Program-made: the position numbers and the translations under genes | Notes under the pieces: model-generated | What the model was told of the DNA's origin: nothing | Databases searched by the model: none | The model's input: the letters and a program-made list of their open reading frames with translations, nothing else | Part shown: piece by piece, positions 9,513 to 47,906 of the stretch | Position numbering within the stretch: position 1 is the first letter of the stretch | Layout: each line of letters begins with the position of its first letter | Source: Sphingobium baderi | Lineage (GTDB): Bacteria; Pseudomonadota; Alphaproteobacteria; Sphingomonadales; Sphingomonadaceae | Length of the DNA: 64,000 nucleotides | NCBI RefSeq assembly: GCF_001456115.1 | Contig: NZ_CP013264.1 | Location: 62,001 to 126,000 of the forward strand | Direction: 5' to 3'

Positions 9513-9558
9513 GCGCCGGATGATGCGAACTTCCTGAACTGGCCTTCAGGAACCACTT

Positions 9559-9589
9559 GGCCCGAAGCCGCGCGCTTCGGGCCATTTTC
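9559..9589 (+). terminator. Rho-independent terminator after the rcnB-like gene
   Basis: A perfect 9-bp stem (GGCCCGAAG at 9559-9567 with CTTCGGGCC at 9575-9583) and a 7-base loop are followed by ATTTTCATTT. It sits 46 bases after the rcnB-like stop and before the next gene's ribosome-binding site. Confidence 0.75.
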
Positions 9590-9627
9590 ATTTGCGCCGG
9601 GCGCGGCCCCGGTGGCAGGAGGGCGCG

Positions 9628-10305: not shown

Positions 10306-10475
10306 AATCTCTGCGGGCCGTTACATCTTGCGACATAAATAACTGATTCCTGACTATTTCATTCCCGCTCGGTTCAGACGGCGGAGCGCATATGCGGGGC
10401 ACCGGCAAAGGAACCGGCGACCAGCCCGCAGGGTTGATCCCCCCACCTTTCCGAATCGGACGATGGAGACAGATT

Positions 10476-10946
10476 ATGCGTAAGTTGATCATATTGGGCC
10501 TGATCGCAGCGACCGCCGCACCGGGAATCGCTACGGCCCAGTCGGCCTCCGAATTGCGCCACGATCGGCGCGAAATCCGGCAGGACCAGCGCGACCTGCG
10601 TCAGGCCCAGCGCCATGGCGACCGTCATGACGTGCGCGATGCGCGCCGCGACGTGCGCGATTCCCGGCAGGAATATCGCGAGGACTGGCGCGACTATCGC
10701 CGGACGCACCGCGATGTTTATCGGGGCGGCAACTGGCGTGCGCCCTTCCGCTATTCGCGTTGGAACGTCGGCGCGCAGATGAGGCCGGCCTATTACAGCT
10801 CGCGCTATTATATCGCCGATCCCTATCGCTATCGGCTCCCCCGTCCGGGCGCCAATTTGCGCTGGGTGCGGCATTATAATGACGTGTTGCTGGTGAATGT
10901 CCGCACTGGTCGCGTTGTACAGGTCCATCGCGGCTTTTTCTGGTAA
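10476..10946 (+). CDS. RcnB family exported protein, short form
   Basis: 156 aa. It has a signal peptide MRKLIILGLIAATAAPGIA cleaved near ATAQ, an Arg/Asp/Gln-rich helical region (about residues 25-90, heptad-like RDVRDSRQEYRED), and a C-terminal RcnB-like domain with RYRLPRPGANLRWVRHYNDV ending GFFW. It is a paralogue of the gene at 8580, sharing the C-terminal domain but with a shorter linker. A periplasmic metal or envelope-stress role is inferred from the family. The ATG at 10476 has GGAGA 9 bases upstream. A strong terminator follows. Confidence 0.83.
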   Translation: MRKLIILGLIAATAAPGIATAQSASELRHDRREIRQDQRDLRQAQRHGDRHDVRDARRDVRDSRQEYREDWRDYRRTHRDVYRGGNWRAPFRYSRWNVGAQMRPAYYSSRYYIADPYRYRLPRPGANLRWVRHYNDVLLVNVRTGRVVQVHRGFFW

Positions 10947-10976
10947 GCGCGGCCCCCGAAAAGGGCTGACGCAAGA

Positions 10977-11016
10977 ACGGCTCCGGGTTCCCTTTCCCCG
11001 GAGCCGTTTGTTTTTT
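10977..11016 (+). terminator. Strong rho-independent terminator
   Basis: A perfect 11-bp stem (ACGGCTCCGGG at 10977-10987 with CCCGGAGCCGT at 10997-11007) and a 9-base loop are followed by TTGTTTTTTG. It terminates the rcnB-like gene ending at 10946. Confidence 0.92.
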
Positions 11017-11157
11017 GCCCGACAACAAAGCCACCGCCCTTGGCCGCGCCGCCCATTTCCAGGCGAGCGCGGCCGATGGCGCGTAAACGCCATCAGTCCG
11101 AAAGGGGGTGGACCGAGCGCGAAACGATCCGCAGCGCGAAAAGTTCCCTCGCTCGCC

Positions 11158-35871: not shown

Positions 35872-35954
35872 GCATTGCCCGCTACAAAAATGCATCACCG
35901 CTTTCCCTTGTTGCATGTCCAAATATGGACTATGCCTTGATCTGGAGGCGCAAG

Positions 35955-36476
35955 ATGATCGAACAGCCCAATGATGCAGCGATAAATGCCGGCCCTGCCG
36001 TGCTCGATCTTTCCCGTTTCGAGCCGGTCAACCGTCGTCGCCTGAGCGCGCCAGCCTTGCGTACCTTCCTGGTTATCGCCGATCTGTGGGGCCTGACGGA
36101 GCAGCAGCGCCGCTTGATCCTCGGCTATCCATCCCGCTCCACCTTCCACAACTGGTGCAAGCAGGCGCGTGAGCATGGCTCGATCACCCTAGATGTCGAC
36201 GTGCTGACACGCATCTCCGCTATACTGGGCATCCATCAGGCTTTGCGCGTACTCTTCACCGAAGAACGTGAAGGCGTCGCCTGGTTGCGCCAACCACATA
36301 ATGCACGCCCGTTCGGCGGGAATCCGCCGCTCGACATAGCCACCAACGGGACGCAGGACGGCCTGATGACCATCCGTCGTTTCCTCGATGCGGCGCGGGG
36401 AGGTCTCTACATGCCTCCAACAGCCACAGAAGCGGATTTCGTGCCCTATGAGGATAGCGAGATCATATTCCAGTGA
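35955..36476 (+). CDS. Xre/MbcA/ParS-type antitoxin
   Basis: A 173-aa antitoxin of the RES-Xre type. An N-terminal helical DNA-binding region (about residues 30-95, LTEQQRRLILGYPSRSTFHNW) precedes the C-terminal MbcA/ParS toxin-binding domain with ISAILGIHQALRVLF and WLRQPHNARPFGGNPPLDI. It should bind and neutralise the downstream RES toxin and repress the pair. ATG 35955 has GGAGG upstream; 35924 is in frame. It overlaps the toxin by 4 bases. Confidence 0.88.
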   Translation: MIEQPNDAAINAGPAVLDLSRFEPVNRRRLSAPALRTFLVIADLWGLTEQQRRLILGYPSRSTFHNWCKQAREHGSITLDVDVLTRISAILGIHQALRVLFTEEREGVAWLRQPHNARPFGGNPPLDIATNGTQDGLMTIRRFLDAARGGLYMPPTATEADFVPYEDSEIIFQ

Positions 36477-37171
36477 CAGGCACACTTTCAAGCGCGCCAC
36501 ATCCAAGCTTTCGCCTCATCCCATCCCGCTTTCCTCCGATCGGGCTCTTCGACACAGTCGCCACGGCAGCCGATGCGGAGGCCGTCATGGAACTTGCCGG
36601 CTGGACCAACGACCGTCTGGTGGCCAATCGGCTGGCCCGGCTACCCAAGTCCCAATGGGTCTATGGCCGCGCCAATTCCGGGGTCATCATGGCCACGTTC
36701 CTGCATACGGCCCCCCGGGGCATGCGCTTCAACGGCCCGGATCTCGGCGCCTGGTATGCATCCAGCGAGATCGAGACAGCGGCTGCGGAGGTCGGACACC
36801 ATCTGCGCCGCGAAGCGATCGCCCGCAACGTGCCGAGCATGAACCGAACCTACCGGACTTATTCAGCCAAGCTGCTTGGCGATGATTATCACGACCTTCG
36901 TGCGCTACAGAGCAGTCTCAAAGATATTTATCGATCCGACAGCTATGATGCTGCCCAGCAATTTGGAGAAGTCATTCGGACTGAAGAAAAGGCCGGCATC
37001 ATATTTGACAGCCTCCGTCGCAAAGGCGGAACGAATATTGTTTCTTACATCCCGACTAACATCGTCGACGTAATGCAAACCGATCATTTCGAAATCAGCG
37101 TCGAAGCCGGAGCGCGCGCGATTTACGTGCGGCGCCTGGATGCCATCAATATCCGACATCTCAAGCAGTAA
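36473..37171 (+). CDS. RES domain toxin, NAD+ phosphorylase type
   Basis: A 232-aa RES-domain protein. The three namesake residues fit FRLIPSRF (Arg), WYASSEIETAAAEV (Glu) and IIFDSLRRKGG (Ser). RES toxins such as MbcT degrade NAD+, stopping growth when freed from antitoxin. The start is GTG 36473, overlapping the antitoxin stop (GTGA), so expression is coupled. The pair lies just outside the left att site of the 37.4-kb element and could be part of an older mobile segment. Confidence 0.9.
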   Translation: MTGTLSSAPHPSFRLIPSRFPPIGLFDTVATAADAEAVMELAGWTNDRLVANRLARLPKSQWVYGRANSGVIMATFLHTAPRGMRFNGPDLGAWYASSEIETAAAEVGHHLRREAIARNVPSMNRTYRTYSAKLLGDDYHDLRALQSSLKDIYRSDSYDAAQQFGEVIRTEEKAGIIFDSLRRKGGTNIVSYIPTNIVDVMQTDHFEISVEAGARAIYVRRLDAINIRHLKQ

Positions 37172-37396: not shown

Positions 37397-37436
37397 TGGT
37401 GACCCCTACGGGAATCGAACCCGTGTTTCAGCCGTG
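37397..37436. repeat. attL, 40-bp direct repeat of the tRNA-Glu 3' end
   Basis: The 40 bases are identical to 47831-47870 and begin TGGTGACCCCTACGGG, the reverse complement of the T-arm, acceptor and CCA of tRNA-Glu. Only the 3' half of the tRNA is present here. After base 40 the two copies diverge (GAAGGCG here, AAAGGGC at the tRNA). Confidence 0.93.
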
Positions 37437-37658
37437 GAAGGCGAAAAGCGTTTAGAAACAAGGGCACGTCCCCTGTTTCATGTTTCGTTCCCGCCATTGT
37501 ATTTCAATGGGTTGCAGGGAAGGGGGGACGGATACGCGCCCCCTGATGGGCAAAAGAAAACCCCCGATCTGGCGGCAACCGGATCGAGGGCGGAATACCT
37601 TTCCATGACGGCGGACAGGCTGGCGGACGTTACCGTACGCCAGGCGGTGACGCAATGA
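37434..37658 (+). CDS. Possible small protein at the left end of the element
   Basis: An open frame of up to 74 codons ends TGA 37658, overlapping the next gene by ATGA, which hints at coupling. Its first in-frame ATG lies in the att repeat, so the true start is probably later, and no convincing ribosome-binding site is seen. The last part, SMTADRLADVTVRQAVTQ, looks helical. A palindrome and a leftward terminator-like hairpin lie in the same stretch, so part may be non-coding. I do not recognise it. Confidence 0.3.
   Translation: MEGEKRLETRARPLFHVSFPPLYFNGLQGRGDGYAPPDGQKKTPDLAATGSRAEYLSMTADRLADVTVRQAVTQ
37455..37510. repeat. Two palindromes just inside attL
   Basis: Arm pair GAAACA-A-GGG and CCC-C-TGTTTC (37455-37464 and 37470-37479) form a 25-base palindrome with one mismatch and a CACGT centre. 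A second perfect one is CCATTG-TATTT-CAATGG (37494-37499 and 37505-37510). They may be integrase arm sites, repressor operators or part of a replication origin. The role is inferred only from position. Confidence 0.55.
37552..37590 (-). terminator. Leftward rho-independent terminator candidate
   Basis: Read on the minus strand, 12-base arms (37579-37590 and 37561-37572; one mismatch, one G-T wobble, 6-base loop) are followed by TTTTCTTTT. It faces left with no leftward gene next to it, so it would stop antisense transcription reaching the att site. Confidence 0.5.
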
Positions 37659-38209
37659 GCGCCGTGGATCTTTACGCAGAGGCGCGCACCGCATCCGAGC
37701 GGGTGCGACAGCCGCATATCGACCGCCTGCTGGCGCTGGGCGTTCCCGGCCCCGCCATTGCGATCCTGGGCAACCGTGAAATCCCTTTCGGCGTTGGCAC
37801 GGTCGAGAGGTTAGAGCGCGGGCTTTACCAGCCCGGCGACGGCACCTTGCATGTCATTTCCCCCGTCTATGCAGAGGGCGAGATTATCGACCTTCTCGCA
37901 TGGCGCAGCGATGCCCCCGGAAACTGGGCTTGGCGGACGGGCTTAGGCTGGGCGCTGGGCACTGACATGTTGCTCCCGCGCTGGGATGACGATGCCGTGC
38001 AAATCCACGCCACGCCGTTGGACTGGCTGCGCGCTGGCGGCGAGGGAATGTGCATCCTCGATTGGGAAGCGCCTGAGCTGGGCGAGCTTCGTGCACTGGA
38101 GGCGATCGCGGCAGACGAATGGATTGCGCAACGCCTTGTCCGCGCTCTGAGCAAGCCTCAGCGGCTCCCGAACATTATCAGGCGGAAGGAGGAGCGCCGT
38201 GCTGCGTAA
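37655..38209 (+). CDS. Unknown protein upstream of the element's helicase
   Basis: A 184-aa soluble protein beginning MSAVDLYAEARTASERVRQP. It contains a Trp-rich central region (IIDLLAWRSDAPGNWAWRTG) and MCILDWEAPELGELRALEAI, and ends in a basic tail. I know no domain for it. It overlaps the helicase start by 11 bases and is probably a replication accessory or primase-like factor by position, but no Toprim or zinc motif is visible. The overlap with upstream and downstream frames supports one operon. Confidence 0.75.
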   Translation: MSAVDLYAEARTASERVRQPHIDRLLALGVPGPAIAILGNREIPFGVGTVERLERGLYQPGDGTLHVISPVYAEGEIIDLLAWRSDAPGNWAWRTGLGWALGTDMLLPRWDDDAVQIHATPLDWLRAGGEGMCILDWEAPELGELRALEAIAADEWIAQRLVRALSKPQRLPNIIRRKEERRAA

Positions 38210-39557
38210 CCTCGAATCCCTGGACAGCCACGCATCGCGATGGTCTGGCAACTGGAACAACCCCGCCGGGGGCGGAGCATCCGCTGCGGACGCGCATCCG
38301 TTGCCGAGCTTAGACCTGGCTGCGCTCGCGAACGTCAAACCCCAGCCCAAGCCCTTCGCCATCGAACGTATCGCGCCATCGGCAGAGGTGACGCTTTTGA
38401 CCGGCCCTGGAAGCGCGGGGAAATCGCTCTTGGGTCAGCAACTGGCGACGGCTGCGGCGGCGGGCCTTCCTTGCCTTGGGCTTGCCGTCATGTCTGGCCC
38501 GGCGATCTATCTGACATGCGAGGACGATGCCGGGCAATTGCACTGGCGGCAGGCGCATATCTGCGAAGCCATGAACGTGCCTATGGGCGCGCTGGCAGGC
38601 AAGCTGCACCTTATCAGCCTTCGCGGCGAGCTAGATAATGCGTTAACCGTGGAGGCTGTGGACGGAAAGACAGCGCCCTCACCGTCCTATGTACGTCTCG
38701 TTCAGTGGATTAGGAGCAGTGGCTGCGGACTGGTCATTCTCGACCACGTAGCGCATCTTTTCACCGGCAATGAGAATGATCGCGGCGACGTTACCCGCTT
38801 CGTCAATCTGCTGAACAGGCTGGCAGGCGAGACAGGCGCGGCGATCCTGCTACTCGGACACCCGAACAAAAGCGGTGATAGCTATTCCGGCTCGACGGCA
38901 TGGCTGAACGCGGTGCGCTCGCAAATCACGATCGACCATGAGCGCGATGCGGATGGCACCATCATTGATCATGACGCCCGGGTGCTGTCGATCGGCAAGG
39001 CGAACTACGCTAAAAAGGGCGAGGCGCTGCGCTTCCGCTGGCATAAGTGGGCGTTCGTTCGGGAGGATGATTTACCGGCTGATACGCGTGCGGAACTGGC
39101 CGAGGTGATCCAGCTCAATAAGGAAGATGATGCTTTCCTCGCCTGCCTTCGCGAGCGCGATGCCCAGGGCGATGGTCGATCGGTCGGACCGTCCCCCGGC
39201 CCCAACTACGCCCCTAGTCAATTCGTGGGGATGAAGCAGGCGAGAGGGCTGAAAAAGGAAGCCCTGAAGCGAGCGATGGACCGGCTATTTTCAGTCGGTC
39301 GGATAGAGTCCGCGACCGTCCACAACAAGGCTAAGGGGCGCGATGTGACGATCATTCGGGAGGTTCCCCAGACTTCCCCGAACGCCTCCCCGAACGCTTC
39401 CCGAACACTGATCCCGAACGATCCCGAACCCGCAGAAATGCGTCCCCGCACACACACTATATATACTACGTATATAACGGGCGCGGCCCATGGGTCCGCC
39501 GCGCCCTATCCAGATGATGAAATCGACTGGGGCACGGATGGGGAGGCGGACGAATGA
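38199..39557 (+). CDS. RepA-like AAA/RecA-fold hexameric helicase of the element
   Basis: 452 aa. The RecA-like ATPase core has Walker A GPGSAGKSLLGQQL (about residue 69), Walker B GLVILDHVAHLF (about residue 180) and a sensor segment ILLLGHPNKSGDSYSGSTAW, as in RSF1010 RepA-type helicases of plasmids and satellites. The C-terminal 130 residues are variable. It would unwind DNA for element replication. Start GTG 38199 has AGGAGG upstream. The 3' end overlaps the next small gene by ATGA. Confidence 0.85.
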   Translation: MLRNLESLDSHASRWSGNWNNPAGGGASAADAHPLPSLDLAALANVKPQPKPFAIERIAPSAEVTLLTGPGSAGKSLLGQQLATAAAAGLPCLGLAVMSGPAIYLTCEDDAGQLHWRQAHICEAMNVPMGALAGKLHLISLRGELDNALTVEAVDGKTAPSPSYVRLVQWIRSSGCGLVILDHVAHLFTGNENDRGDVTRFVNLLNRLAGETGAAILLLGHPNKSGDSYSGSTAWLNAVRSQITIDHERDADGTIIDHDARVLSIGKANYAKKGEALRFRWHKWAFVREDDLPADTRAELAEVIQLNKEDDAFLACLRERDAQGDGRSVGPSPGPNYAPSQFVGMKQARGLKKEALKRAMDRLFSVGRIESATVHNKAKGRDVTIIREVPQTSPNASPNASRTLIPNDPEPAEMRPRTHTIYTTYITGAAHGSAAPYPDDEIDWGTDGEADE

Positions 39558-39712
39558 CCGCTCCCGCTTTCACGGCTCGCCAGCTTGCCAAGGAGATCGG
39601 CAGGCTCTCCCCCGACTGGCGCAACCCCGAACGCTATTTTGAGAACAGGCACGAGATCGAGCGCGAGCTGCAACGCTTGGCCCGGCAACTGGAAAGGATG
39701 GGCAATGGCTAA
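39554..39712 (+). CDS. 52-aa helical small protein
   Basis: 52 codons from ATG 39554 to TAA 39712. The product begins MTAPAFTARQLAKEIGRLSP and has a long charged helix (EIERELQRLARQLERMGNG). It overlaps the helicase stop (ATGA) and the HNH start (8-base overlap), so the three are coupled. The amphipathic helix suggests a coiled-coil partner protein. The function is unknown. Confidence 0.65.
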   Translation: MTAPAFTARQLAKEIGRLSPDWRNPERYFENRHEIERELQRLARQLERMGNG

Positions 39713-40091
39713 TTGGCCCTACAACACGACGACATGGAAGCGGCTCAGAGCAGCGCACCTATCCTTGCACCCGCAATGTGAGGGATGCGAAGCCATGGGC
39801 AGGCTCACCCTCGCTAACACGGTGGACCATCGTGTCGCTATCAGCGACGGCGGGCATCCCTTCCCTGGGCATGATGGCTTGGCGTCCTACTGCGCACCCT
39901 GTCATGGGGCAAAGACGGCGCGGGGCTCTGAGGCGGGCGCGATCAAGAGCACGAAGCCGAGGAAGGGATGCAACCCCGATGGCTCGCCGCTCGACCCTGC
40001 GCATCCGTGGTCAGAAAAATCGCTCAGAGCTGAGCCTAAGGGACCGACGCCTGACCTTCACAATCAGTTAGTTTCAAAAGGAAACCTATAA
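39705..40091 (+). CDS. HNH endonuclease of the packaging module
   Basis: A 128-aa HNH nuclease. The metal-binding Cys pairs CEGC and CAPCHGAKTARG frame the catalytic VDHRVAI (His about residue 43). HNH proteins next to terL are required for cos cleavage in HK97-type phages and occur in cf-PICIs. It overlaps the terL start by one base. The C-terminal tail is basic and Pro-rich. Its position directly before terL suggests cos-type packaging of the element. Confidence 0.9.
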   Translation: MANWPYNTTTWKRLRAAHLSLHPQCEGCEAMGRLTLANTVDHRVAISDGGHPFPGHDGLASYCAPCHGAKTARGSEAGAIKSTKPRKGCNPDGSPLDPAHPWSEKSLRAEPKGPTPDLHNQLVSKGNL

Positions 40092-41677
40092 TGGGTGCAA
40101 GGGGTCCGGGCGCTGGTCGCCTGAAAGCCGTTGCTGCGAGGGCTGTGTCGGCTGCGCTTCCGTGGGAGCAGGAGAACATGCCGCCTGCCGAGAAGGTGTT
40201 GGCCTTCCTGCGAACCCTGCCCATCGTGTCGGGCCTCAAGGCTGGCGAGAAGATGGAATTGCTGGCGTTTCAGGAGCAATTCGTGCGCGGGATATATGAA
40301 CCCTGCGACGATCAGGGCAAGCGTCTGGTGCGTCTTGCTGCGCTGTCTGTGGCACGTGGCAACGGCAAGTCTGGTCTGCTGGCCGGTCTGTCGCTGGCTC
40401 ACCTCATGGGGCCGATGCTGGAACCCTATGGCGAGTGCTATGCCGCCGCACTCGACCGCGAACAGGCTGCGGTCCTGTATCGCATGGTCTGCGCCTATAT
40501 TTACGAAACCCCATGGATGGCTGCGCGTGTGAATATCCGCGACCAGTTCAAGGAAATCACCGATCACGAAAGCGGCTCGATCTGGCGGGCGCTGACTTCG
40601 GACGCGCGCAAGGCCCACGGCTTGGCCCCGTCCTTCTGGGTGGCGGACGAGGTGGCGCAATGGCGATCCCGTGAACTATGGGATAATCTGCGGACGGGCA
40701 TGGCGAAGCGCAAACATGCCCTGGGCGTCACGATCAGCACGCAGGCGGCGGACGATCTGCATTTCTGGTCTGAGATGCTGGACGCGGAGCCAGCACCATC
40801 GGTCTATGTCCAGCTTCACGCCGCACCTGATGACTGCGCGCTGGATGACCGGGAGGCATGGGCGGCGGCTAATCCTGCGCTCGGGGCGTTCCTCAACGAG
40901 GATGAATTTGCGGATGCTGCGGCCATGGCAATGCGCTCGCCATCCTTCGCCCCTGCCTTCCGCCTGCTGAACCTCAATCAGCGCATTGCAGCCGAGGGCC
41001 GGTTCATCGAACAGGCGGATTGGGACGCGAACGGCGATCCCTTCGACGTGGCCGAGCTGGAGGGCAAGCGATGCTATGGTGGCCTTGACCTGTCGAGCAC
41101 CCGCGACCTGACTGCGCTGGCGCTGTGGTTCCCCGATGAAGGCAAGCTGCTGGTCTGGCATTGGGTTCCTGCTGATACGATAGGCGAGCGCGTGGAGCGT
41201 GACCGCGTGCCCTATGACCGCTGGGCCGATGAGGGATGGATAGAGCGGACCGTGGGCAGGGCGACCGACCGCACGGCCATAGCGCGCCAGCTTGCCGAGA
41301 TCAGGCAAGCCTATGACGTGCAGGGCATCGCCTTCGACCGCTGGCGTTTCGAGGATCTGGGAAAGCTGCTGAGCGACGAGGGCATAGACCTGCCCATGGT
41401 CGAGTTTGTGCCCGGCTTCAAAAGCTACGCCCCTGCCGTGGATGCCTTCGAGCGGGCGCTGCTGGATCGCCGGATGCAGCACAACGGCAATCCGCTGCTG
41501 CGCTGGCAGGCCGGTAACGTGATCGTGGAGCCGGACCCGGCCGGGAACCGCAAGCCGACCAAGGCGAAGTCGCTGGACCGGATCGACGGCATCGTGTCCG
41601 CCATCATGGCCTGCGGGCTGGCTGAGAGGGACGAAGGGCCGCAAACCTATAAAGGCAGCGGGCCTATGTGGCTTTAG
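40091..41677 (+). CDS. terL: Terminase large subunit
   Basis: 528 aa. The ATPase domain has Walker A VARGNGKSGLLAGL (about residue 93) and Walker B FWVADEVAQWRS (about residue 185). The RNase-H-like nuclease domain begins YGGLDLSSTRDLTAL (catalytic Asp about residue 330) and has further acidic residues in MVEFVPGFKSY and SLDRIDGIVSAIM. It pumps DNA into the prohead. The first residues MGARGPGAG resemble the start of some small terminases. No separate small subunit is recognisable. Confidence 0.93.
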   Translation: MGARGPGAGRLKAVAARAVSAALPWEQENMPPAEKVLAFLRTLPIVSGLKAGEKMELLAFQEQFVRGIYEPCDDQGKRLVRLAALSVARGNGKSGLLAGLSLAHLMGPMLEPYGECYAAALDREQAAVLYRMVCAYIYETPWMAARVNIRDQFKEITDHESGSIWRALTSDARKAHGLAPSFWVADEVAQWRSRELWDNLRTGMAKRKHALGVTISTQAADDLHFWSEMLDAEPAPSVYVQLHAAPDDCALDDREAWAAANPALGAFLNEDEFADAAAMAMRSPSFAPAFRLLNLNQRIAAEGRFIEQADWDANGDPFDVAELEGKRCYGGLDLSSTRDLTALALWFPDEGKLLVWHWVPADTIGERVERDRVPYDRWADEGWIERTVGRATDRTAIARQLAEIRQAYDVQGIAFDRWRFEDLGKLLSDEGIDLPMVEFVPGFKSYAPAVDAFERALLDRRMQHNGNPLLRWQAGNVIVEPDPAGNRKPTKAKSLDRIDGIVSAIMACGLAERDEGPQTYKGSGPMWL

Positions 41678-41871
41678 GGAAGTCGTATCGCGACCAGGCG
41701 TAGGATGCGGCGCATCGCTTCGGGACGGCTCATGCTAGGATCATTCCCGGCAATCCAAAGGTCGAGCAATTCGAGGTCATCGGGTTGGAGGCGGACGCCA
41801 ACAAGCGCCCCGCGTCCGCCGCGCGATGCCGGACCACGTTTCCGGGTTAACCTAGTTTCTTGACTGTCCAT
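41674..41871 (-). CDS. Ribbon-helix-helix-like DNA-binding protein
   Basis: 65 aa from ATG 41871, with a basic N-terminus (MDSQETRLTRKRGPASRGGR). A beta-strand and two-helix core follows: VGVRLQPDDLELLDLWIAGN and MSRPEAMRRILRLVAIRL. This is the Arc/CopG ribbon-helix-helix pattern. It is the only leftward gene in the element and ends against terL (4-base overlap). It is divergent from the gene at 41958, with an inverted repeat between them, so it may regulate that operon. Confidence 0.7.
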   Translation of the reverse strand: MDSQETRLTRKRGPASRGGRGALVGVRLQPDDLELLDLWIAGNDPSMSRPEAMRRILRLVAIRLP

Positions 41872-41894
41872 GAAAACCGGGTTCACACATTTTC

Positions 41895-41929
41895 GAGCCG
41901 GACGAAAGTTTGCACCTTCCGCCCGGCTC
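41895..41929. promoter_or_regulatory. Inverted repeat between the RHH gene and the rightward gene at 41958
   Basis: Perfect 7-base arms GAGCCGG (41895-41901) and CCGGCTC (41923-41929) flank a 21-base centre in the divergent intergenic region. It could be an operator for the RHH protein or a transcript hairpin. Confidence 0.45.
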
Positions 41930-41957
41930 TAACCGCAACCGTCACTTGGAGACGATC

Positions 41958-42296
41958 ATGGCTATCACCGATCTACGGGCGGATTCCGCCCTTGTCACCC
42001 TACCGAATTGCATACCCTCCATGCCTGCCGTAGCGCGCATCCTGTCCCGCTATGACCGGGAGCGGCTGGAGGGATTTGTCGCTATTGCTATCGACCTCAT
42101 GGACCTGATGGACGGCGATCCTGATCTTGAGGACGACGATCCGGCGGGCGGTAACGTCGAGGACGAACGGCAAATGGCGGAAGGTGAAGATTACTATCGC
42201 CTGCCGCCCCGCTACGGCATCGACCAGACCAAAGGGCCGATCAATGAGATCGAGGCCTATCGCCAGCATCGGCGGGATATGGGGTGTCTGGGTTGA
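41958..42296 (+). CDS. Acidic unknown protein of the element
   Basis: 112 aa beginning MAITDLRADSALVTLP. The first half is helical (MPAVARILSRYDRERLEGFV, IDLMDLMDGD). The second is very acidic and ends in a Tyr/Arg-containing tail (IEAYRQHRRDMGCLG). ATG 41958 has GGAG upstream. I do not recognise the family. It lies between the packaging and the capsid modules. Confidence 0.65.
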   Translation: MAITDLRADSALVTLPNCIPSMPAVARILSRYDRERLEGFVAIAIDLMDLMDGDPDLEDDDPAGGNVEDERQMAEGEDYYRLPPRYGIDQTKGPINEIEAYRQHRRDMGCLG

Positions 42297-42342
42297 CCGC
42301 GTGTCCCGCTCGGTTCGGCTGAGCGGGTTTATTTCGCGTATC

Positions 42343-42383
42343 ACTCAAAATGAGTTGACGCCTCATTCATTCTGAGCGATAGA
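42343..42383 (+). promoter_or_regulatory. Candidate promoter overlapped by CTCA/TGAG palindromes
   Basis: A -35-like TTGACG (42355-42360) and a poor -10-like GATAGA (42378-42383) are 17 bases apart. Over them lie ACTCA-AAA-TGAGT (42343-42355), AATGAG...CTCATT (flanking the -35) and a further TGAG at 42373. Four alternating half-sites suggest a repressor or activator operator for the head-gene operon. Confidence 0.5.
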
Positions 42384-42408
42384 CGGAATGGAAAAGCGAG
42401 GCGGGTAT

Positions 42409-43080
42409 ATGGCGACTATGCCGGAATTGATTGCAGTGCTGGAAAAACATCGCGTTGATAACGGCGCGACGTTGGAACTGTTCGGCCGCCGCCTGCGCGA
42501 AGCGGGCCGTATCACGAAGGGGAAGCGTGGGCGGGGCGCGGCCCACATGACGTATCTCGATGCTGCTCGGCTGTTGATCGCTTGCGCTGCGACTGACCAC
42601 CCGGAGCGCGCCGTTGATGCTGAATATGTTTTTAGCAATCTCGTCCGCCATTCGGAAGCCGGCATTGATGGAGATTTTCCATTGCCTGCTGTCGAAGCAG
42701 CTACGCTCGACCTTGGACTGGCTATGACGCTTGAGGCCATTGGCAACGGCAGCGTTGATGCTATTGCAAAGAAACGTTGGGAAGCAGAGCACCCGGAAAG
42801 CCACATCCGTGCTCCCGCTTTCTGCTGGCTTCGGCTTCATCGGAGCCACACCAGCGCCGATATTCGCGTTTTGGCTGGTCGATACATCTATCATCATCCG
42901 GCGCTCAAGGCACTCACTGACAGTATCGACAACGGCACTCTGCACGAAGTCCGTGACTTCGCCACGGACGCGCTGGATCGCGAGACGTATCGTTTTCGTA
43001 CCGGCAAGAATCTTGCTGCTGAGTTCGAAGAAAAGCTTCTGAACGATGTCGCCAAGCTGATCGCTGGTGAGGAATATTAA
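42409..43080 (+). CDS. Unknown 223-aa protein, first gene of the capsid operon
   Basis: Start 42409 has a GAGGCGGG site; ATG 42388 is in frame but lacks one. The N-terminal part is basic and helical (MPELIAVLEKHRVDNGATLE, LFGRRLREAGRITKGKRGRG, LDAARLLIACAAT), and the C-terminal part is mixed. The basic helical N-terminus could bind DNA, making it a possible small terminase or regulator, but I do not recognise the family. It is separated from the capsid gene by 151 bases of hairpin-containing leader. Confidence 0.65.
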   Translation: MATMPELIAVLEKHRVDNGATLELFGRRLREAGRITKGKRGRGAAHMTYLDAARLLIACAATDHPERAVDAEYVFSNLVRHSEAGIDGDFPLPAVEAATLDLGLAMTLEAIGNGSVDAIAKKRWEAEHPESHIRAPAFCWLRLHRSHTSADIRVLAGRYIYHHPALKALTDSIDNGTLHEVRDFATDALDRETYRFRTGKNLAAEFEEKLLNDVAKLIAGEEY

Positions 43081-43189
43081 TCTTGAACCCGCCTCTCCCC
43101 AAGGCGTCCTCCGCCGCGTCCGGCACTGAGGAAGGGGTGCACCCCATGGGGACGTTTTGCCCACGCTGCGAAGCGTCGGCTTTCACCGC

Positions 43190-43211
43190 GCCGGGGGCTT
43201 CGGTCCCCGGC
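43190..43211 (+). other. GC-rich hairpin in the capsid-gene leader
   Basis: GCCGGGG (43190-43196) pairs perfectly with CCCCGGC (43205-43211) around an 8-base loop, ending 20 bases before the capsid ATG at 43232. There is no U-run, so it is not a terminator. It may tune translation or protect a processed mRNA end. Confidence 0.4.
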
Positions 43212-43231
43212 CAGATTGAGGAAGTGAGACT

Positions 43232-44542
43232 ATGAATCTTCACCAACTGCGCCAGCGCAAAGCCGAGCTACGAGCGGCAAGCGCGGCTATTATCGCTGCT
43301 CCGGCTGGTGCCGATGGGCTGCTTTCCGACGAACAGCGTTCGCAGTTCGACACCAACGCCACTGAGCTGGACCGCCTACAGGGCGATGAGCAGCGCATGG
43401 AGCGCATGGCTGCGGACGATCATGCAGCATCGGGCACTACCCTTGCGGGCAAGGGCAACGGCAACGCTGTTGAATATCGCGTTTTCGCGGACGCCAAGGC
43501 GACCGGCAACGCCGATCTGGATTCCTGGCGCACCCCGGAAGGCGAGCGCGTCCCCGTCCTGAGCCGCGAACAGCGCATCGCTGATTTTGCGGACGCATCG
43601 AACAGCGCCGCGAACGAGATCGGTTTGCGTGGCGTCCTTTCCGCGCTGGTGAACGGCCCAAAGAACGAGCTGGAGCGCCGCGCTCTCACGGAAGGTTCGG
43701 CCTCTGCTGGCGGCATCCTGCTGCCCGCTCCTATGGCTGGCGGCATCATCGACGTGGCTCGCACCAAGAACGTGGCGTTTCAGGCTGGCGCTCGCACCGT
43801 CCCGATGGCGAACAAGACGCTTCGCATGGGCAAACAGCTCACGGACGTTGTGCCCCAGTGGCGCGCTGAAAATGATCCGATTGCCGAAAGCGATCCGACT
43901 TTTGGCGACGTGACGCTGGACGCCGAGAATCTGGCGGTTCTTATCAAGGTTTCGCGGGAATGGCTGGAGGACGTGCCGAACGGCGATCAGCTGCTGCGGG
44001 ACAGCATGGCGGCGGCATTTGCGCGCGGTCTGGATGCTGCCATTTTCTTCGGCACCGGCACGAGCAACGCACCCCTGGGTCTGGCTAACACCACTGGATT
44101 GCAGACTGTCAGCATGGGCACCAACGGCGCGGCGCTCACCGGCTGGGCACCGTTCCTTGACGCTGCGCTGGCGCTGGAAACTGTCAACGAGGGTAAGATT
44201 GACGCCATCGTTCTGGCGCCCCGCACCAACCGCGTGATTGCCGGTCTGACCGACACCACCGGGCAGCCCCTCCAGCGTCCGCCGCTGTTGGCAAATGTTC
44301 CGATCCTCAGCACGACCGGGATTCCTGTCAATGAGACGCAGGGCACGGCGACCAACGCCTCCAGCGCCTTCATGGGCGACTTCTCGCAAGTCCTGGTGGG
44401 CATCCGCACGGCGCTGCAAATCACCGTCCTGCACGAGCGGTTCGCGGATACCGGACAGGTTGGCTTTGTGGGCTGGCTCCGCGCCGATGTGGCGGTTGCA
44501 CGTCCTGCGGCTCTTGCAAAGATCGTGGGCATTAAGCCGTGA
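43232..44542 (+). CDS. Major capsid protein, HK97 fold
   Basis: 436 aa. The N-terminal delta (scaffold) domain of about 140 residues is Ala/Gln/Arg-rich helical (LHQLRQRKAELRAASAAIIA). The HK97-fold body follows: EGSASAGGILLPAPMAGGII, VPMANKTLRMGK, VSREWLEDVPNGDQLLRDSM and the GTGTSNAPLGLAN loop. The C-terminal P-domain strands are present. The protein assembles the head and its delta domain is cut by the protease at 44539. It is intact and carries its own start and RBS (GAGGAAG). Confidence 0.93.
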   Translation: MNLHQLRQRKAELRAASAAIIAAPAGADGLLSDEQRSQFDTNATELDRLQGDEQRMERMAADDHAASGTTLAGKGNGNAVEYRVFADAKATGNADLDSWRTPEGERVPVLSREQRIADFADASNSAANEIGLRGVLSALVNGPKNELERRALTEGSASAGGILLPAPMAGGIIDVARTKNVAFQAGARTVPMANKTLRMGKQLTDVVPQWRAENDPIAESDPTFGDVTLDAENLAVLIKVSREWLEDVPNGDQLLRDSMAAAFARGLDAAIFFGTGTSNAPLGLANTTGLQTVSMGTNGAALTGWAPFLDAALALETVNEGKIDAIVLAPRTNRVIAGLTDTTGQPLQRPPLLANVPILSTTGIPVNETQGTATNASSAFMGDFSQVLVGIRTALQITVLHERFADTGQVGFVGWLRADVAVARPAALAKIVGIKP

Positions 44543-45057
44543 TCGAGCGCCGCTCTCTGGCAATGGGGGAGGTGCGGGCAGAGTCCCGCACCCTTTCCGG
44601 CTACGCTATCGTCTATGGCGCTGAGGCGCGGATTAACGGCGGGCTGGAAACGATCGCTGCGGGCGCAGTATCGGAATCTCTCGCCAGTGGGCGGGACATT
44701 CTGGCGCTGGTCGATCATGACGCGAGCCGCGTCCTGGGCCGCACGAAATCGGGCACGCTGCGGCTGGTCGAGGATGCCCGTGGGCTTGCCTTCACTATCG
44801 ACCTTCCCGACACCTCAGCGGCGCGTGACGTGCTGGCGCTGGCTGAGCGTGGCGACCTGGGCGGCATGAGCTTCGGCTTTTCCGTCCCAGCTGGTGGCGA
44901 CGAATGGCGCGGAAACAAGCGCACGGTCCGCAAGCTGGCGCTTCATGAAATCAGCGTGATCGCATCGCACCCGGCCTACACCTCAACATCTGTGGAAGCG
45001 CGCGCTGCAAGCAATGAGCTGGAGCTGCTGCGGCTTCGTCTGGAGCTTTACAGATGA
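44539..45057 (+). CDS. HK97 family prohead protease
   Basis: A 172-aa S78-type prohead protease. The family motif is LSGYAIVYG near the start, the catalytic His is in LALVDHDASRVLGRT (about residue 60), and the Ser lies in LGGMSFGFSV (about residue 114). It cleaves the capsid delta domain during maturation. It starts GTG overlapping the capsid stop (GTGA) and overlaps the portal by 4 bases. Its order after the capsid gene is reversed relative to HK97 itself. Confidence 0.92.
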   Translation: MIERRSLAMGEVRAESRTLSGYAIVYGAEARINGGLETIAAGAVSESLASGRDILALVDHDASRVLGRTKSGTLRLVEDARGLAFTIDLPDTSAARDVLALAERGDLGGMSFGFSVPAGGDEWRGNKRTVRKLALHEISVIASHPAYTSTSVEARAASNELELLRLRLELYR

Positions 45058-46244
45058 CCTTCATGGAAACCCTGCGGGGCTGGTTAGGAGCGCCTGAGCG
45101 CCGCGACTATCAACCGCCTGTCACTATGACCACCTTGGGCGTGGGCGTCCCCTGCGAGCCTGCTAACCCCTATCTGGCGGAAAACCTCGCTGTCGTGCTG
45201 GCTGCCGTCAATATCCTGTCGGGCACCATGGCGGCGCTGCCGGTGATCGTCTATACGCGGCGACAGGGCGAGCGCATCGAGCAGCCCGACCACTGGCTGC
45301 AAAAGCTAGTGCGCGGCGGACCTAATTCGCAACAGGTATGGGGCGGATTGATCGAGTCCGCTGTTGCCTCAGTCGAGCTTCACGGCAATGCGCTGGTCGA
45401 GATCGAGCGGGACGAGAACGGCAGCGTCAATGGTCTGCGCTTCATCCCATGGCCTTGGGTAACGGCGCAGCTGCTTTCGACCGGACGCATGGCGTTCGAC
45501 GTTTACGAGCCGCAGATGCCAGCCATGGGCGCGCGCAAGCGCCGCCTCCTGGCCGCTGACGTGATCCACCTCAAGGACCGCAGCGACGATGGCCTTATCG
45601 GGCGCTCTCGCCTGAGCCGTGCCCGTGAGACGCTGAGGGCGGCGACGGCGCAGCAAACCTTCGCCACTGCCTTCCTGGAGCGTGGAGCGCAACCTAGCGG
45701 CGTTCTCGAAGTCCCCGGCGTGATGACGCAGGAACAGCGCACGACCTTGCGCGAGGCGTTCAAGAGCCGTCACGGCGGCGCAGACAATGCCGGTTCTACC
45801 TTGGTCCTGGACGGCGGCATTAGCTGGAAATCGGCGCAGATTAGCCCGGAAGATGCCGAGCTTTTGGCCTCGCGTCGTTTCAGTGTGGAGGAAATTGCTC
45901 GCGTGTTTGGCGTCCCCCCGCCGCTGGTGGGCGACCTGTCGCACGGCACATTTACCAACAGCCGGGAGGCGGCGCGATGGTTCGGCCAGTTCTCGCTCAC
46001 CCCTCGCGTTCGCCGGATCGAGGCGGAATTGAACCGGGCGCTGTTCGGCCCTGGCAGCCGCTATGAAATCGAGTTCGACATGAGCGACCTGTTGCGCTCC
46101 GATCCTGAAACCCGCTGGGCATCGCACAAGATCGCAGTTGAGGCGGGCATCCTTGACCCTGACGAAATCCGTCAAATTGAAGGATGGAATAAGCGCAAGG
46201 TGGAGGCGGCCAAAACCCCGGTGGAAGGAGAACAGGCGGCATGA
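45054..46244 (+). CDS. Portal protein, HK97 family
   Basis: A 396-aa portal protein. Recognisable parts are PYLAENLAVVLAAVNILSGT, LIESAVASVELHGNALVEI, the VIHLKDRSDDGLIGRSRLSR region and the conserved VEEIARVFGVPPPLVGDLSH with FTNSREAARWFGQFSLTPRV. The portal forms the dodecameric DNA gate and terminase/connector docking site. It overlaps the protease and connector genes by 4 bases each. Confidence 0.94.
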   Translation: MTFMETLRGWLGAPERRDYQPPVTMTTLGVGVPCEPANPYLAENLAVVLAAVNILSGTMAALPVIVYTRRQGERIEQPDHWLQKLVRGGPNSQQVWGGLIESAVASVELHGNALVEIERDENGSVNGLRFIPWPWVTAQLLSTGRMAFDVYEPQMPAMGARKRRLLAADVIHLKDRSDDGLIGRSRLSRARETLRAATAQQTFATAFLERGAQPSGVLEVPGVMTQEQRTTLREAFKSRHGGADNAGSTLVLDGGISWKSAQISPEDAELLASRRFSVEEIARVFGVPPPLVGDLSHGTFTNSREAARWFGQFSLTPRVRRIEAELNRALFGPGSRYEIEFDMSDLLRSDPETRWASHKIAVEAGILDPDEIRQIEGWNKRKVEAAKTPVEGEQAA

Positions 46245-46507
46245 CTGATCTTGTCACCCTAACGGAAGCAAAGCTGTTCCTGCGCGTCATCCATGACGAT
46301 GAGGACAGCATCATTTCCATGATGATCGCGGCGGCGTCGGAAGCGGTTGGCGATATTGTCGCGGAGATCGACCCGGACAATGTGCCGGTGCGCCTCAAGC
46401 TGGCTGTCCTGAGCCGCGTGGCGGTCATGTATGACAGCCGGGATAGCATGGAGGCGGGCAAGGGCGAATTGCCGATGCTCACCCCCTTGCGGGCGTTGGA
46501 GGTCTGA
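46241..46507 (+). CDS. Head-tail connector (HK97 gp6-like)
   Basis: An 88-aa small helical protein, TDLVTLTEAKLFLRVIHDDE then DSIISMMIAAASEAVGDIV and a C-terminal helix with AVMYDSRDS. This is the gp6-like adaptor pattern that sits below the portal. A single adaptor is present; a second (stopper) protein that full phages have is not seen. In a satellite, the adaptor would set which helper tail can attach. It overlaps its neighbours by 4 bases and 1 base. Confidence 0.85.
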   Translation: MTDLVTLTEAKLFLRVIHDDEDSIISMMIAAASEAVGDIVAEIDPDNVPVRLKLAVLSRVAVMYDSRDSMEAGKGELPMLTPLRALEV

Positions 46508-46752
46508 TGACGGACGCGGCTGCCCTTCCTAACTGGCCCGCGCGGCTGGGCGAGGATTTGGCCGCCGCGTATCTTGGCGTCTCGAAAACTAACTTTCGCG
46601 GGAAATGGCAATCGCGCCAATATCCTCAGCCGGTGCGGGACGGAAACCGCCTGCTATGGTCGCGTGTCCAGCTCGACCGCTTTGTCGAGGCTCAGTTCGG
46701 CCTCACCGGCGCAAATGAACAGGGGGATGATTCGTGGGCCGACTTGAGATGA
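46507..46752 (+). CDS. AlpA-like/excisionase-like HTH protein
   Basis: An 81-aa winged-helix DNA-binding protein with LGEDLAAAYLGVSKTNFRGK then QYPQPVRDGNRLLWSRVQLD and FVEAQFG, the AlpA/MerR-type HTH and wing. AlpA regulators activate satellite and PICI excision genes; Xis-type factors direct excision. It overlaps the integrase start by 4 bases, so both are made together at the distal end of the head operon. Confidence 0.85.
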   Translation: MTDAAALPNWPARLGEDLAAAYLGVSKTNFRGKWQSRQYPQPVRDGNRLLWSRVQLDRFVEAQFGLTGANEQGDDSWADLR

Positions 46753-47813
46753 AGGGCATCTGTCAGAAACACGGCAGGCTCTACTACCGACGCAAGGTCG
46801 GCGGGCGTGACACCTATATCCGCCTGCCTGCCCTGGACGATCCCAACTTTGCCGCTGCCTATGCCGATGCTTCGCGTCCCGACAAGGCCCGCGCTAAGCC
46901 TGCCAAGGGCACGTTTGCAGCGCTGGTGGCGGACTATCGGGCTTCCAGCGAGTTCACGACCCTTTCGGACACGACCAAAACCAACCGCCTGCGCTATCTG
47001 GATATGATCGTGTCCGAGCATGGGCATCGGACGGTGGCAGGATGCCGCCCTAGCGACGTTCGGAAGATGAGGGACGCCTATGCTTCCCTTTCCGGTAAGG
47101 CGAACAACTGGCTGGCGACCTTCAAGGCGCTGATGAGCTACGCGGCGCTTAACGACTGGCGGCGCGACAACCCGGCGCGCGAGGTCCGCAAGCTGGAAGA
47201 TGGCGAGCACGAGCCATGGCCTGCGGACGTGCTGGAGCAGGCGCTTGCCCATGCCTCCCCTACCCTTCGCCTGGCGATCATCACCGGCCTTTGCAGCGGC
47301 GCGCGGATCGGTGACGTTATCAAGATGCAGCACGGATGGCATGATGGCCATTTCATGCAGTTCACGACCAGCAAGCGCGTGGGGCGCAAGACGGTCGGCG
47401 TTCCGGTCGCTGTTCCGATGCACCCGCTTTGGCTGGAAGAAATCGCCAAGTTGCCGCGCAAAACAATGACGCTGATCTATGACCGATCTGGCAAGCCGTT
47501 CGCAGATACCGGAGTGCTGCAAGAGCGCGTTCGGACCCTCATGAAGTCCATCGGAAAGCCGACTTATCTCAGCAACGGCAAAGAGCGGAATTACACCTTT
47601 CACGGCCTGCGGAAGAACGCGGCCTGTTACTTGGCCGAGCTTGGCCTGAGTGACATCGACATTGGCGCTATCTGTGGAATGACCCCTGACACAGTGCGCC
47701 ATTACACGAAGCGGAAACGGGCGCTGATGATTGCGCGCGGTGCTGCTGATCGTGTGACGCGGGGGGACGTTCTCCCCTTAAAAGGGGGACGGTCGCAAGG
47801 AGCAGCAAAATAA
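46749..47813 (+). CDS. int: Tyrosine recombinase (site-specific integrase)
   Basis: 354 aa. The core-binding domain lies at about residues 50-150 and the catalytic domain follows: Arg in GLCSGARIGDVIKM, Lys region TTSKRVGRKT, His-x-x-Arg in YTFHGLRKNAACY and nucleophilic Tyr in VRHYTKRK. It inserts the element at tRNA-Glu; attR starts 18 bases after its stop. Start 46749 overlaps the AlpA-like stop; GTG 46734 is in frame. Confidence 0.93.
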   Translation: MKGICQKHGRLYYRRKVGGRDTYIRLPALDDPNFAAAYADASRPDKARAKPAKGTFAALVADYRASSEFTTLSDTTKTNRLRYLDMIVSEHGHRTVAGCRPSDVRKMRDAYASLSGKANNWLATFKALMSYAALNDWRRDNPAREVRKLEDGEHEPWPADVLEQALAHASPTLRLAIITGLCSGARIGDVIKMQHGWHDGHFMQFTTSKRVGRKTVGVPVAVPMHPLWLEEIAKLPRKTMTLIYDRSGKPFADTGVLQERVRTLMKSIGKPTYLSNGKERNYTFHGLRKNAACYLAELGLSDIDIGAICGMTPDTVRHYTKRKRALMIARGAADRVTRGDVLPLKGGRSQGAAK

Positions 47814-47830
47814 ATGCCGCAAAATCAATA

Positions 47831-47870
47831 TGGTGACCCCTACGGGAATCGAACCCGTGTTTCAGCCGTG
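47831..47870. repeat. attR, 40-bp repeat within the intact tRNA-Glu gene
   Basis: Identical to attL at 37397-37436. It covers the CCA, acceptor 3' strand and T-arm and part of the anticodon arm of tRNA-Glu on the minus strand, so integration keeps the tRNA functional. Confidence 0.93.
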
Positions 47871-47906
47871 AAAGGGCCGCGTCCTAGACCGCTAGACGAA
47901 GGGGCC
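47831..47906 (-). tRNA. tRNA-Glu (anticodon TTC)
   Basis: A 76-base tRNA on the minus strand. The acceptor is GGCCCCT with AGGGGTC, the anticodon loop CTTTCAC (TTC), the T-loop TTCGATT, and the encoded 3' end CCA. All stems pair, with one G-T pair in the acceptor. It is transcribed toward the element, which sits at its 3' end. Confidence 0.96.

Follow-up and report, generated by a model that had tools for sequence, protein, structure and literature searches.

The closest described systems to the locus reported here are the capsid-forming PICIs (cf-PICIs), which are said to carry their own capsid, protease, portal, connectors, TerL, HNH, TerS, AlpA and Pri-Rep and to be devoid of tail and lysis genes (PMC10690885, PMC10448857), with a mean size of 14 kb as given in another source (PMC10803314). 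The Streptomyces satellites MulchRoom and MiniFlayer are likewise described as possessing their own terminase, portal and capsid, and the MulchRoom tail matches that of its helper in length and is said to be helper-derived (PMC10690885). A further group, from E. coli, is described as tRNA-integrated and as containing MCP, decoration and tape-measure genes with most tail genes absent (PMC10448857).

The window analysed here is a 64,000-nucleotide stretch of the Sphingobium baderi contig NZ_CP013264.1, within which an element of about 10.4 kb occupies a tRNA-Glu(TTC) gene on the minus strand, the right att copy being the 3′ end of that gene and the attL-attR spacing amounting to 10434 bp. Like the cf-PICIs, the element has its own capsid, protease, portal, connector, TerL and HNH and no detected tail or lysis genes; to this extent the cf-PICI content ascribed to it by the first-pass annotation stands, whereas the TerS that belongs to the cf-PICI set was not detected, and at 10.4 kb the element is smaller than the cf-PICIs at ~14 kb. 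From its sequence, the element is very probably a capsid-forming phage satellite. Because TerS is undetectable, the statement that it works like a cf-PICI is firmer than the statement that it is one, and the element falls outside strict cf-PICI membership.

By their description, MulchRoom and MiniFlayer resemble the element in having their own terminase, portal and capsid and differ in their virulent helpers, direct terminal repeats and scaffold, and they are reported as non-homologous to the cf-PICIs (PMC10690885). The E. coli satellites are described as being without terminase, protease and adapters, all three of which are found in the tRNA-Glu element, and by that description they rather resemble the relatives L027, L028 and L275, which combine MCP with a tape measure (PMC10448857). 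A direct comparison is offered by L324, a circular 15,995-bp record from Klebsiella pneumoniae FDAARGOS_1323 labelled a cf-PICI from gene content, which likewise encodes its own head proteins (HK97 capsid, protease, portal and connector) together with HNH, TerL and integrase, has no annotated tail gene and follows the same MCP-protease-portal order; it also has AlpA, to which the AlpA-like HTH of the tRNA-Glu element may correspond. Its portal is 31% identical to that of the window and joins it in a weak group (84/45). In contrast, HNH-TerL lies 5′ of MCP in the tRNA-Glu element and 3′ of the connector in L324, an AAA_25 ATPase stands against a DUF927 protein, the sizes are 10.4 kb and 16.0 kb, and the hosts of the element's family are alphaproteobacterial, unlike that of L324. 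The HK97-like phages (HK022, Rivra, Shpa and others) have homologous TerL proteins, ~37-38% identical among the matches listed, and homologous portals of 27-35% identity, but their order is TerS-TerL-portal-protease-MCP, followed in HK022 by the tail genes.

Table 1 Features of the tRNA-Glu element; positions refer to the window
Feature	Position	Strand	Evidence or remark
attL	37397..37436	+	40-bp copy of the tRNA-Glu 3′ end; exact repeat of 47831-47870
orf184	37655..38209	+	no Pfam/PHROG match; one chance-level NCBIfam match
replication ATPase, AAA_25, primase/helicase-like	38199..39557	+	Pfam 2.2e-32; PHROG polymerase/primase 2.1e-28
51-aa mini ORF	39554..39709	+	overlaps rep stop and HNH start
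HNH endonuclease	39706..40091	+	Pfam 3.5e-5; PHROG 3.6e-24; 65% to element 2
terminase large subunit TerL	40091..41677	+	Pfam (TerL nuclease) 1.2e-38; PHROG 2.2e-120
ribbon-helix-helix (RHH, CopG-like) protein	41674..41886	-	Pfam RHH_1 0.0027, below cut-off
orf128	41910..42296	+	similar segments in L034, L058
orf230	42388..43080	+	conserved from 42409
structured RNA leader	43158..43231	+	covariation, covariance model, genome scans; 3′ end at MCP start codon
HK97-fold major capsid protein MCP	43232..44542	+	Pfam 3.1e-39; NCBIfam 9.2e-47
prohead protease S78	44539..45057	+	Pfam 4.8e-40
portal protein	45054..46244	+	Pfam 6.6e-92; in satellite-only clade
head-tail connector Ad1 (gp6-like)	46241..46507	+	Pfam 2.3e-8; PHROG 5.1e-16; 80% to element 2
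AlpA-like HTH	46507..46752	+	PHROG transcription regulator 3.3e-9, 'excisionase and transcriptional regulator' 0.0047; Pfam HTH_17 0.023, below cut-off
tyrosine integrase	46734..47813	+	PHROG 2.7e-32; Pfam 0.015, below cut-off
attR	47831..47870	+	within tRNA-Glu; 40 bp, identical to attL
tRNA-Glu(TTC), integration site	47831..47906	-	ARAGORN, Rfam

The genes for the integrase, HTH protein, ATPase, HNH, TerL, MCP, protease, portal and Ad1 are each one uninterrupted open frame, and with their family matches and the exact repeats they bear out the earlier description of an intact gene set between 40-bp att sites in tRNA-Glu. The HTH gene has a PHROG regulator match; its AlpA-like assignment is weak, and the product is likely an excisionase or regulator. 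In the replication ATPase, which matches primase/helicase PHROGs, Pfam and PHROG reveal no separate primase domain. The start of HNH was set at a conserved ATG at 39706, the mechanical ORF beginning at 39585, and profile matches to the RHH protein occur in other elements too. Stretches related to the 51-aa ORF are present in 53 loci (repeats included), mostly directly 5′ of HNH, and the two databases scanned with it, Pfam and NCBIfam, gave no match. Both this ORF and the RNA leader had been missed in the first-pass annotation, and a second element of the same genome (element 2) lay outside its view.

Pfam, PHROG and NCBIfam scans of the element confirmed the earlier report that tail and lysis families are absent, and orf184, orf128, orf230, the RHH protein and the 51-aa ORF (the last in Pfam and NCBIfam) match none either. 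TerS was not found with the same three databases or by phmmer with seven TerS queries, a search that a divergent TerS could escape. A hidden TerS may be encoded by orf230, relatives of which lie upstream of MCP in 34 loci (window and repeats included); its AF2 model (pLDDT 89) predicts a confident fold with no match in the PDB at E<=0.001. The predicted structure of MCP, at pLDDT 43, is too low for use. Ad1 is the single connector, a PF05521 head-completion protein or second connector being present in element 2 only.

The capsid gene is preceded by a structured RNA for which there is no Rfam match, the Rfam scan having returned, apart from the tRNA, just one sub-threshold chance match. In two genome surveys all its strong matches lie 5′ of satellite capsid genes, and it was searched for in L324 and not found. 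The DNA 5′ of MCP was at first taken for a possible cos site, and covariation favours an RNA instead; a cos site was not located, and the region may double as both. The leader would probably control capsid synthesis.

Element 2 lies at a tRNA-Arg with a spacing of 10,422 bp, and relatives were found in 13 of the 397 genomes of the family as well as more widely in the Alphaproteobacteria. The window capsid alone, used as query, found no relatives in the genome-contig or viral-contig collections, from which relatives were recovered with portal and capsid alignments. Att sites were called by a repeat search alone, in which repeats had to lie 5-20 kb apart and near the integrase, score at least 14, and either overlap a tRNA or reach a score of 20. 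The 44 loci that passed, out of 79, have a median spacing of 10,602.5 bp (SD 571), and 41 of them lie at a tRNA. HNH, TerL, MCP, protease, portal and integrase occur together in 38 of the 44, and the MCP-protease-portal order is kept in all 147 portal-relative loci having the three genes (repeats included). The counts of 34, 53 and 147 loci contain duplicated places (L093=L051, L104=L065, L105=L057/L066, L134=L063, L141=L064, L109/L112=L060/L058, L098=L053, L108=L059, L140=L062; among viral contigs, L219 and L110, L280 and L032). Three closed metagenome circles with head genes and integrase measure 10,030 bp (L239), 10,163 bp (L252) and 10,483 bp (L271) and match neither HK022 tail proteins nor four tape measures, and among the best 120 of 184 capsid homologues the longest contig is 10.0-11.2 kb in 16 and 11.2-25 kb in 5. 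By sequence comparison, the tRNA-Glu element is shown to be a member of a widespread, mostly tRNA-integrated ~10.5-kb family without tail modules.

A tail module was found in none of the 44 att-bounded relatives, either by PHROG scans, among the families listed, or by phmmer with HK022 tail proteins, for which a gpI-like gene was the only match. Of their 265 unassigned ORFs of at least 60 aa, every one that reached 90 aa was PHROG-scanned (161 measuring 90-449 aa, 18 measuring 450 aa or more), the other 86 measuring 60-89 aa; for 148 of the 161 the result covers the most frequent 25 among 54 matching families, and a rare tail match could lie outside, while the first tally covered 25 of 115 families. 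The family is not tail-free without exception: single tail genes occur in three of the 44, as a tape measure in L116 and L134 (L063) and the gpI-like gene in L145, and a tape measure is also found in L027, L028, L274 and L275 and matched by L280, part of the L032 place.

In the portal tree, 30 of 33 satellite portals, that of the window included, form one clade (support 99/91) with all 10 phages outside, and its sister group, weakly supported, consists of two portals, from a Klebsiella and an Arsenophonus element. The window TerL is 96% identical at the amino acid level to those of both elements in genome G196 (dN/dS 0.10-0.12), and seven comparisons with the window or the G196 elements gave dN/dS of 0.10-0.32, with dS >1 in two, which indicates that the genes are under purifying selection. 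That modules are exchanged is shown by the pair of elements in a single genome and by 96%-identical TerL proteins next to unrelated capsid genes.

The head genes, of HK97-like phage type, could also suggest a defective, decaying prophage from which the tail and lysis genes have been deleted, and the few relatives with single tail genes, together with the damaged L057, in which TerL is shortened and MCP was not found, would agree with this. Against it, elements with these genes in this order and of this size are found again at many other tRNAs, for the most part in Alphaproteobacteria, two copies reside in one genome, closed circles have equal length, selection is purifying and the portal clade contains no phages. 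Neither tailed intact relatives nor degraded genes in the tRNA-Glu element were found, and the copies with tail or lysis genes at this tRNA-Glu site that the first-pass annotation had named beforehand as evidence against a satellite did not appear: in 19 same-genus loci (18 with ~1.5 kb of sequence on the left side of the tRNA, L084 with 100 bases only) the element is absent without trace. Because of the second element, the recurrence, the ~10.6-kb spacing without tail module, the circles and the portal clade, the deleted-prophage reading is largely refuted and very unlikely, and the satellite reading proposed earlier gains support. Slightly less probable still is a satellite that takes its tails from a gene transfer agent of the host. 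The genome does contain an RcGTA-like cluster with its own capsid and portal (L033), and an HK97-type helper prophage was not found, the genome's three HK97-type portals being those of the two elements and this cluster; nor was a PF10145 tape measure, the one tail type searched. On the other side, the identity of L033 was judged by eye, without a profile, from gene order and ORF starts, on which it was also rejected as a helper prophage, and its portal is distant from those of the satellites, with 29% identity over 270 aa. Least probable of all is a domesticated device whose tail-less capsids serve some different end, for instance DNA release without tails. The lack of tail genes and of an identified helper would allow it, but the integrase, att sites, patchy presence and kept head-tail connector argue for mobility with tails.

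A capsid-forming satellite would be expected to operate as follows. First, helper infection or prophage induction would lead to excision by the integrase and the AlpA-like protein, circularisation and replication. Next, the element's own capsid and protease would form small proheads, into which HNH and TerL would cut and package its DNA. Finally, Ad1 would couple these heads to helper tails and the helper would lyse the cell, and the head-only family probably spreads by such tails borrowed from full viruses. From the narrow size range around 10.5 kb a small head is predicted, and by HK97 volume scaling 10.4 kb would fit a head of T=3, or one of T=4 if loosely filled.

Taken jointly, the data might tentatively be read, as a possibility we hold with some doubt, as a radiation of head-only satellites in its own right, centred on the Alphaproteobacteria, that combines 10.5-kb packaging without a recognisable TerS with a satellite-specific capsid RNA switch timed to the helper, neither feature having a known description, and whose sister elements form a continuum of borrowing, from HNH-TerL with heads through heads without terminase to a capsid accompanied by no more than TerS and/or a tape measure. 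The use of helper tails by capsid-forming satellites is known, and what is new here is a leader RNA without Rfam match before a satellite capsid, which provides a testable regulatory handle. The findings extend head-making tail-less satellites to bacteria with no case in the parts of the cf-PICI literature consulted, and suggest that many ~10-kb 'viral' contigs in IMG/VR are such satellites.

The window element is bounded at both ends by exact 40-bp repeats recovered in a repeat search, the right-hand one being the 3′ end of a tRNA-Glu(TTC) gene. It encodes, in order, orf184, an AAA_25 replication ATPase, a 51-aa ORF, an HNH protein, the large terminase subunit (TerL), an antisense RHH protein, orf128, orf230, the capsid, protease and portal proteins, the gp6-like connector Ad1, an AlpA-like HTH protein and the integrase. 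Every frame is open and adjacent genes frequently overlap. The element as delimited in the first-pass annotation is borne out. The claim that it lacks tail and lysis genes likewise holds, as none of its proteins matched tail or lysis families above the cut-off in family-profile searches; a tail chaperone model matched the portal once, weakly and below threshold (0.0084). The predicted fold of orf230 is confident, yet has no PDB match. An Xre-type antitoxin and RES-domain toxin pair adjoins attL.

The same genome (G000) contains a second tail-less, capsid-forming island, element 2, flanked by near-repeats at tRNA-Arg(CCT) with a spacing of 10,422 bp versus 10,434 bp for the window element. It encodes an integrase, a small HTH protein read as AlpA-like, a replication gene unlike that of the window element, a PF05521 head-completion protein (1.9e-23), and HNH, TerL, protease, portal and connector proteins that are 65, 48, 61, 51 and 80% identical to their window counterparts, respectively, with a capsid just 25% identical. 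Given the equal size and content at two different tRNAs of one genome, chance deletion of two prophages is hard to credit.

Copies at the locus with tail or lysis genes, which the earlier annotation had considered decisive against a satellite, were also looked for. The tRNA-plus-flank query matched in 60 of 61 genus genomes (G430 matched in the tRNA alone), and at 19 same-genus loci that retain the tRNA-Glu and flank no element was seen in the 1.5 kb on the left side of the tRNA (100 bases for L084). On their left, the similarity of these sites to the window stops at the att region, which suggests that this site may be a hotspot. The own genome yielded no HK97-type helper prophage: of its three PF04860 portals, two belong to the elements and the third to a cluster resembling the RcGTA type of gene transfer agent (GTA), PF05521 occurs in element 2 only, and PF10145 has no match in this genome. 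For one capsid-forming PICI (cf-PICI), too, it is reported that a resident prophage does not have to act as helper (PMC11389934).

The portal search of 397 family genomes (E<=1e-60) yielded 16 loci, distributed over 13 genomes with the own one counted. When named genomes were scanned with a portal alignment, 79 loci came up, most of them in Alphaproteobacteria (Sphingobium, Croceicoccus, Rhizobium, Roseomonas, Acetobacter, Magnetospirillum, Reyranella and Parvularcula). Desulfovibrio, Salinisphaera and some other groups contributed the remaining few, several of which come from MAGs. As the class-wide search of 385 genomes (E<=1e-80) returned only two matches, one of them the own genome, the family is widespread but thin outside sphingomonads. 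Att-like repeats are present in 44 of the 79 loci, 41 of them at a tRNA, with a spacing of 8,672-12,134 (median 10,602.5, SD 571); nine further spacings of the satellite group, element 2 included and some representing the same places as among the 44, are 9,540 to 10,580, with one of 12,418. IMG/VR holds 316 stretches encoding a portal relative, and the best 80 retained include one circular contig (L239, 10,030 bp). Thirty-three capsid-relative contigs were inspected for closure and gene order. L252 is a circle of 10,163 bp with the order MCP-protease-portal-int-rep-HNH-TerL (MCP, major capsid protein) and a capsid 56% identical to that of the window over residues 99-436, and L271 is a circle of 10,483 bp that carries protease and capsid as one fusion; HK022 tail proteins and four tape measures gave no match in any of the three circles. 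The 33-bp repeats at the ends of L275 may be its att sites. Elements in two genomes (L055, L058) lie beside the same flanking gene pair, with no tRNA detected at the site.

HNH, TerL, MCP, protease, portal and integrase are all present in 38 of the 44 bounded relatives, HNH and TerL being missing in L116, L119, L120, L125, L126 and L134. The unassigned proteins of at least 450 aa (n=18) comprise 16 that match primase/helicase families and two tape measures (L116, 2.6e-133; L134, 1.7e-51), and 161 unassigned ORFs of 90-449 aa gave one tail match among the matches listed, a gpI-like gene in L145 (4.9e-41). Single tail genes therefore do occur, and no tail module was found in the bounded relatives or the ~10-kb tape-measure elements.

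Coordinates of the elements and features discussed in the text
Feature	Location	Remark
Window element	window 37397-47870	between the 40-bp repeats
Element 2	C1:3874296-3884771 (L034:2297-12772)	own genome
Toxin-antitoxin pair	window 35757-37171	
orf230	window 42388-43080	family upstream of capsid gene in 34 loci, some being the same place twice
Conserved leader	window 43158-43231	directly upstream of capsid start
Lone lambda gpI-like tail gene	L145:11440-12084	between portal and integrase of Dongia element
Tape-measure gene, ~10-kb element	L116:5210-7228	
Tape-measure gene, ~10-kb element	L134:4453-6231	
Tape-measure gene, ~10-kb element	L027:7204-9216	
Tape-measure gene, ~10-kb element	L028:6668-9289	
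Tape-measure gene, ~10-kb element	L275:5759-9487	

In the portal tree, 30 of the 33 satellite rows, window included, form one clade (support 99/91), outside of which lie ten phages and the GTA. Three satellite rows, L271, L276 and L279, group with phages, which indicates that small capsid-bearing elements are not of single origin. The portals of cf-PICI-like elements from Klebsiella and Arsenophonus are sister to the satellite clade with weak support (84/45). Among the matches listed from 50,697 records, the best phage portal shares about 35% identity with the window portal, and other satellites reach 55% in genomes and 69% in IMG/VR (L171). The order MCP-protease-portal is found in 147 of 147 loci of L092-L250 with all three genes found, some loci being the same place twice and the portal rows having been collected by similarity, irrespective of tails. 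The Klebsiella record also follows this order, whereas HK022 and seven annotated phages have the opposite one, portal-protease-MCP (in this comparison IPK is unannotated and the Mae-JY04 product names give no portal or MCP). The satellite order is nevertheless no universal rule, as capsid relatives also show MCP-portal-protease (L270, L276, L277, L279) and protease-MCP-portal (L260-L265 except L263, and L271), and a Roseomonas plasmid has portal-protease-MCP. Several of L260-L266 and L271 encode protease and capsid as a single fused frame.

TerL of the window element shares 96% identity with its counterparts in both elements of genome G196, while the portals are 48-50% and the capsids 22-24% identical, a sign of module exchange. 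The dN/dS values point to purifying selection: they are 0.10-0.12 for TerL, 0.14 for orf230, 0.19 for the connector and 0.32 for the protease. Comparison of the G196 elements with each other gives 0.19 (capsid) and 0.31 (portal), and the capsids of L027 and L029 give 0.05, dS exceeding 1 in the orf230, protease and L027/L029 comparisons. The capsid search revealed seven further tRNA-bounded elements (L025-L031, 7.7-10.5 kb) with an integrase and a capsid 38-46% identical to that of the window, in which a profile search found no TerL, protease or portal; the small terminase subunit (TerS) is present in L025, and TerS and a tape measure in L027 and L028. The window element thus joins the packaging genes of one group to a capsid of the other. 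Contig L269, 6,460 bp with a 111-bp terminal repeat and hence a 6,349-bp circle, showed no phage genes apart from TerS, HNH and capsid, and L267 resembles a tandem of this unit. Precedents for capsid-only elements are described in two reports, on SaPIbov5 Ccm, a capsid homologue redirecting helper assembly (PMC8569155), and on E. coli satellites (PMC10448857).

The capsid gene is immediately preceded by a conserved, covarying RNA leader consisting, in this order, of a GCGA-loop hairpin, a 3-bp helix around a GC-rich hairpin and a ribosome-binding site. In an alignment of 37 sequences built on a seed pattern that constrained part of hairpin 1 but left helices 2 and 3 free, 97.7% of cells are paired versus 84.3 in shuffles, and 10 of 19 pairs are changed on both sides. 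Double-change cells number 87 versus 32.9 in shuffles (0/500 as high), and sliding gave 2-11; the signal from further pair types is weaker (18 versus 15.9; 38/500 shuffles equally high). The covariance model matched in 29 of 100 sources, 28 at full length, and each of the 28 has an MCP frame that begins where the leader ends; 11 of these lie outside the alignment, one of which, L134, repeats L063. Carriers include the window, L051, L058, L061 and L128. The leader was not found in L034 (element 2), L025-L032, the GTA cluster, nine phages, the Klebsiella element or the circles L239, L252 and L271, and so marks only part of the family. The region matches no Rfam family. Both genome surveys were filtered strictly, at the cost of weak matches, and their strong matches all lie before satellite capsid genes. 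Among 394 family genomes there were 12 matches, 11 of them in satellite-bearing genomes of the portal survey: ten at satellite capsid genes and one, in G139, on a separate contig, where the capsid gene that follows is truncated because the contig ends. The twelfth (L350, 9e-4) lies among housekeeping-type ORFs; satellite-bearing G178 and G263 gave no match, and among 337 class-wide genomes the own genome was the sole match. We infer that the leader regulates the capsid gene.

Of the original proposal of a capsid-forming satellite, the functional part stands: the window element resembles a cf-PICI in how it works and most likely relies on borrowed tails. No TerS was detected in it, and on this one feature it falls outside cf-PICIs in the strict sense. 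We therefore regard it as a new, alphaproteobacteria-centred variant of capsid-forming satellites.
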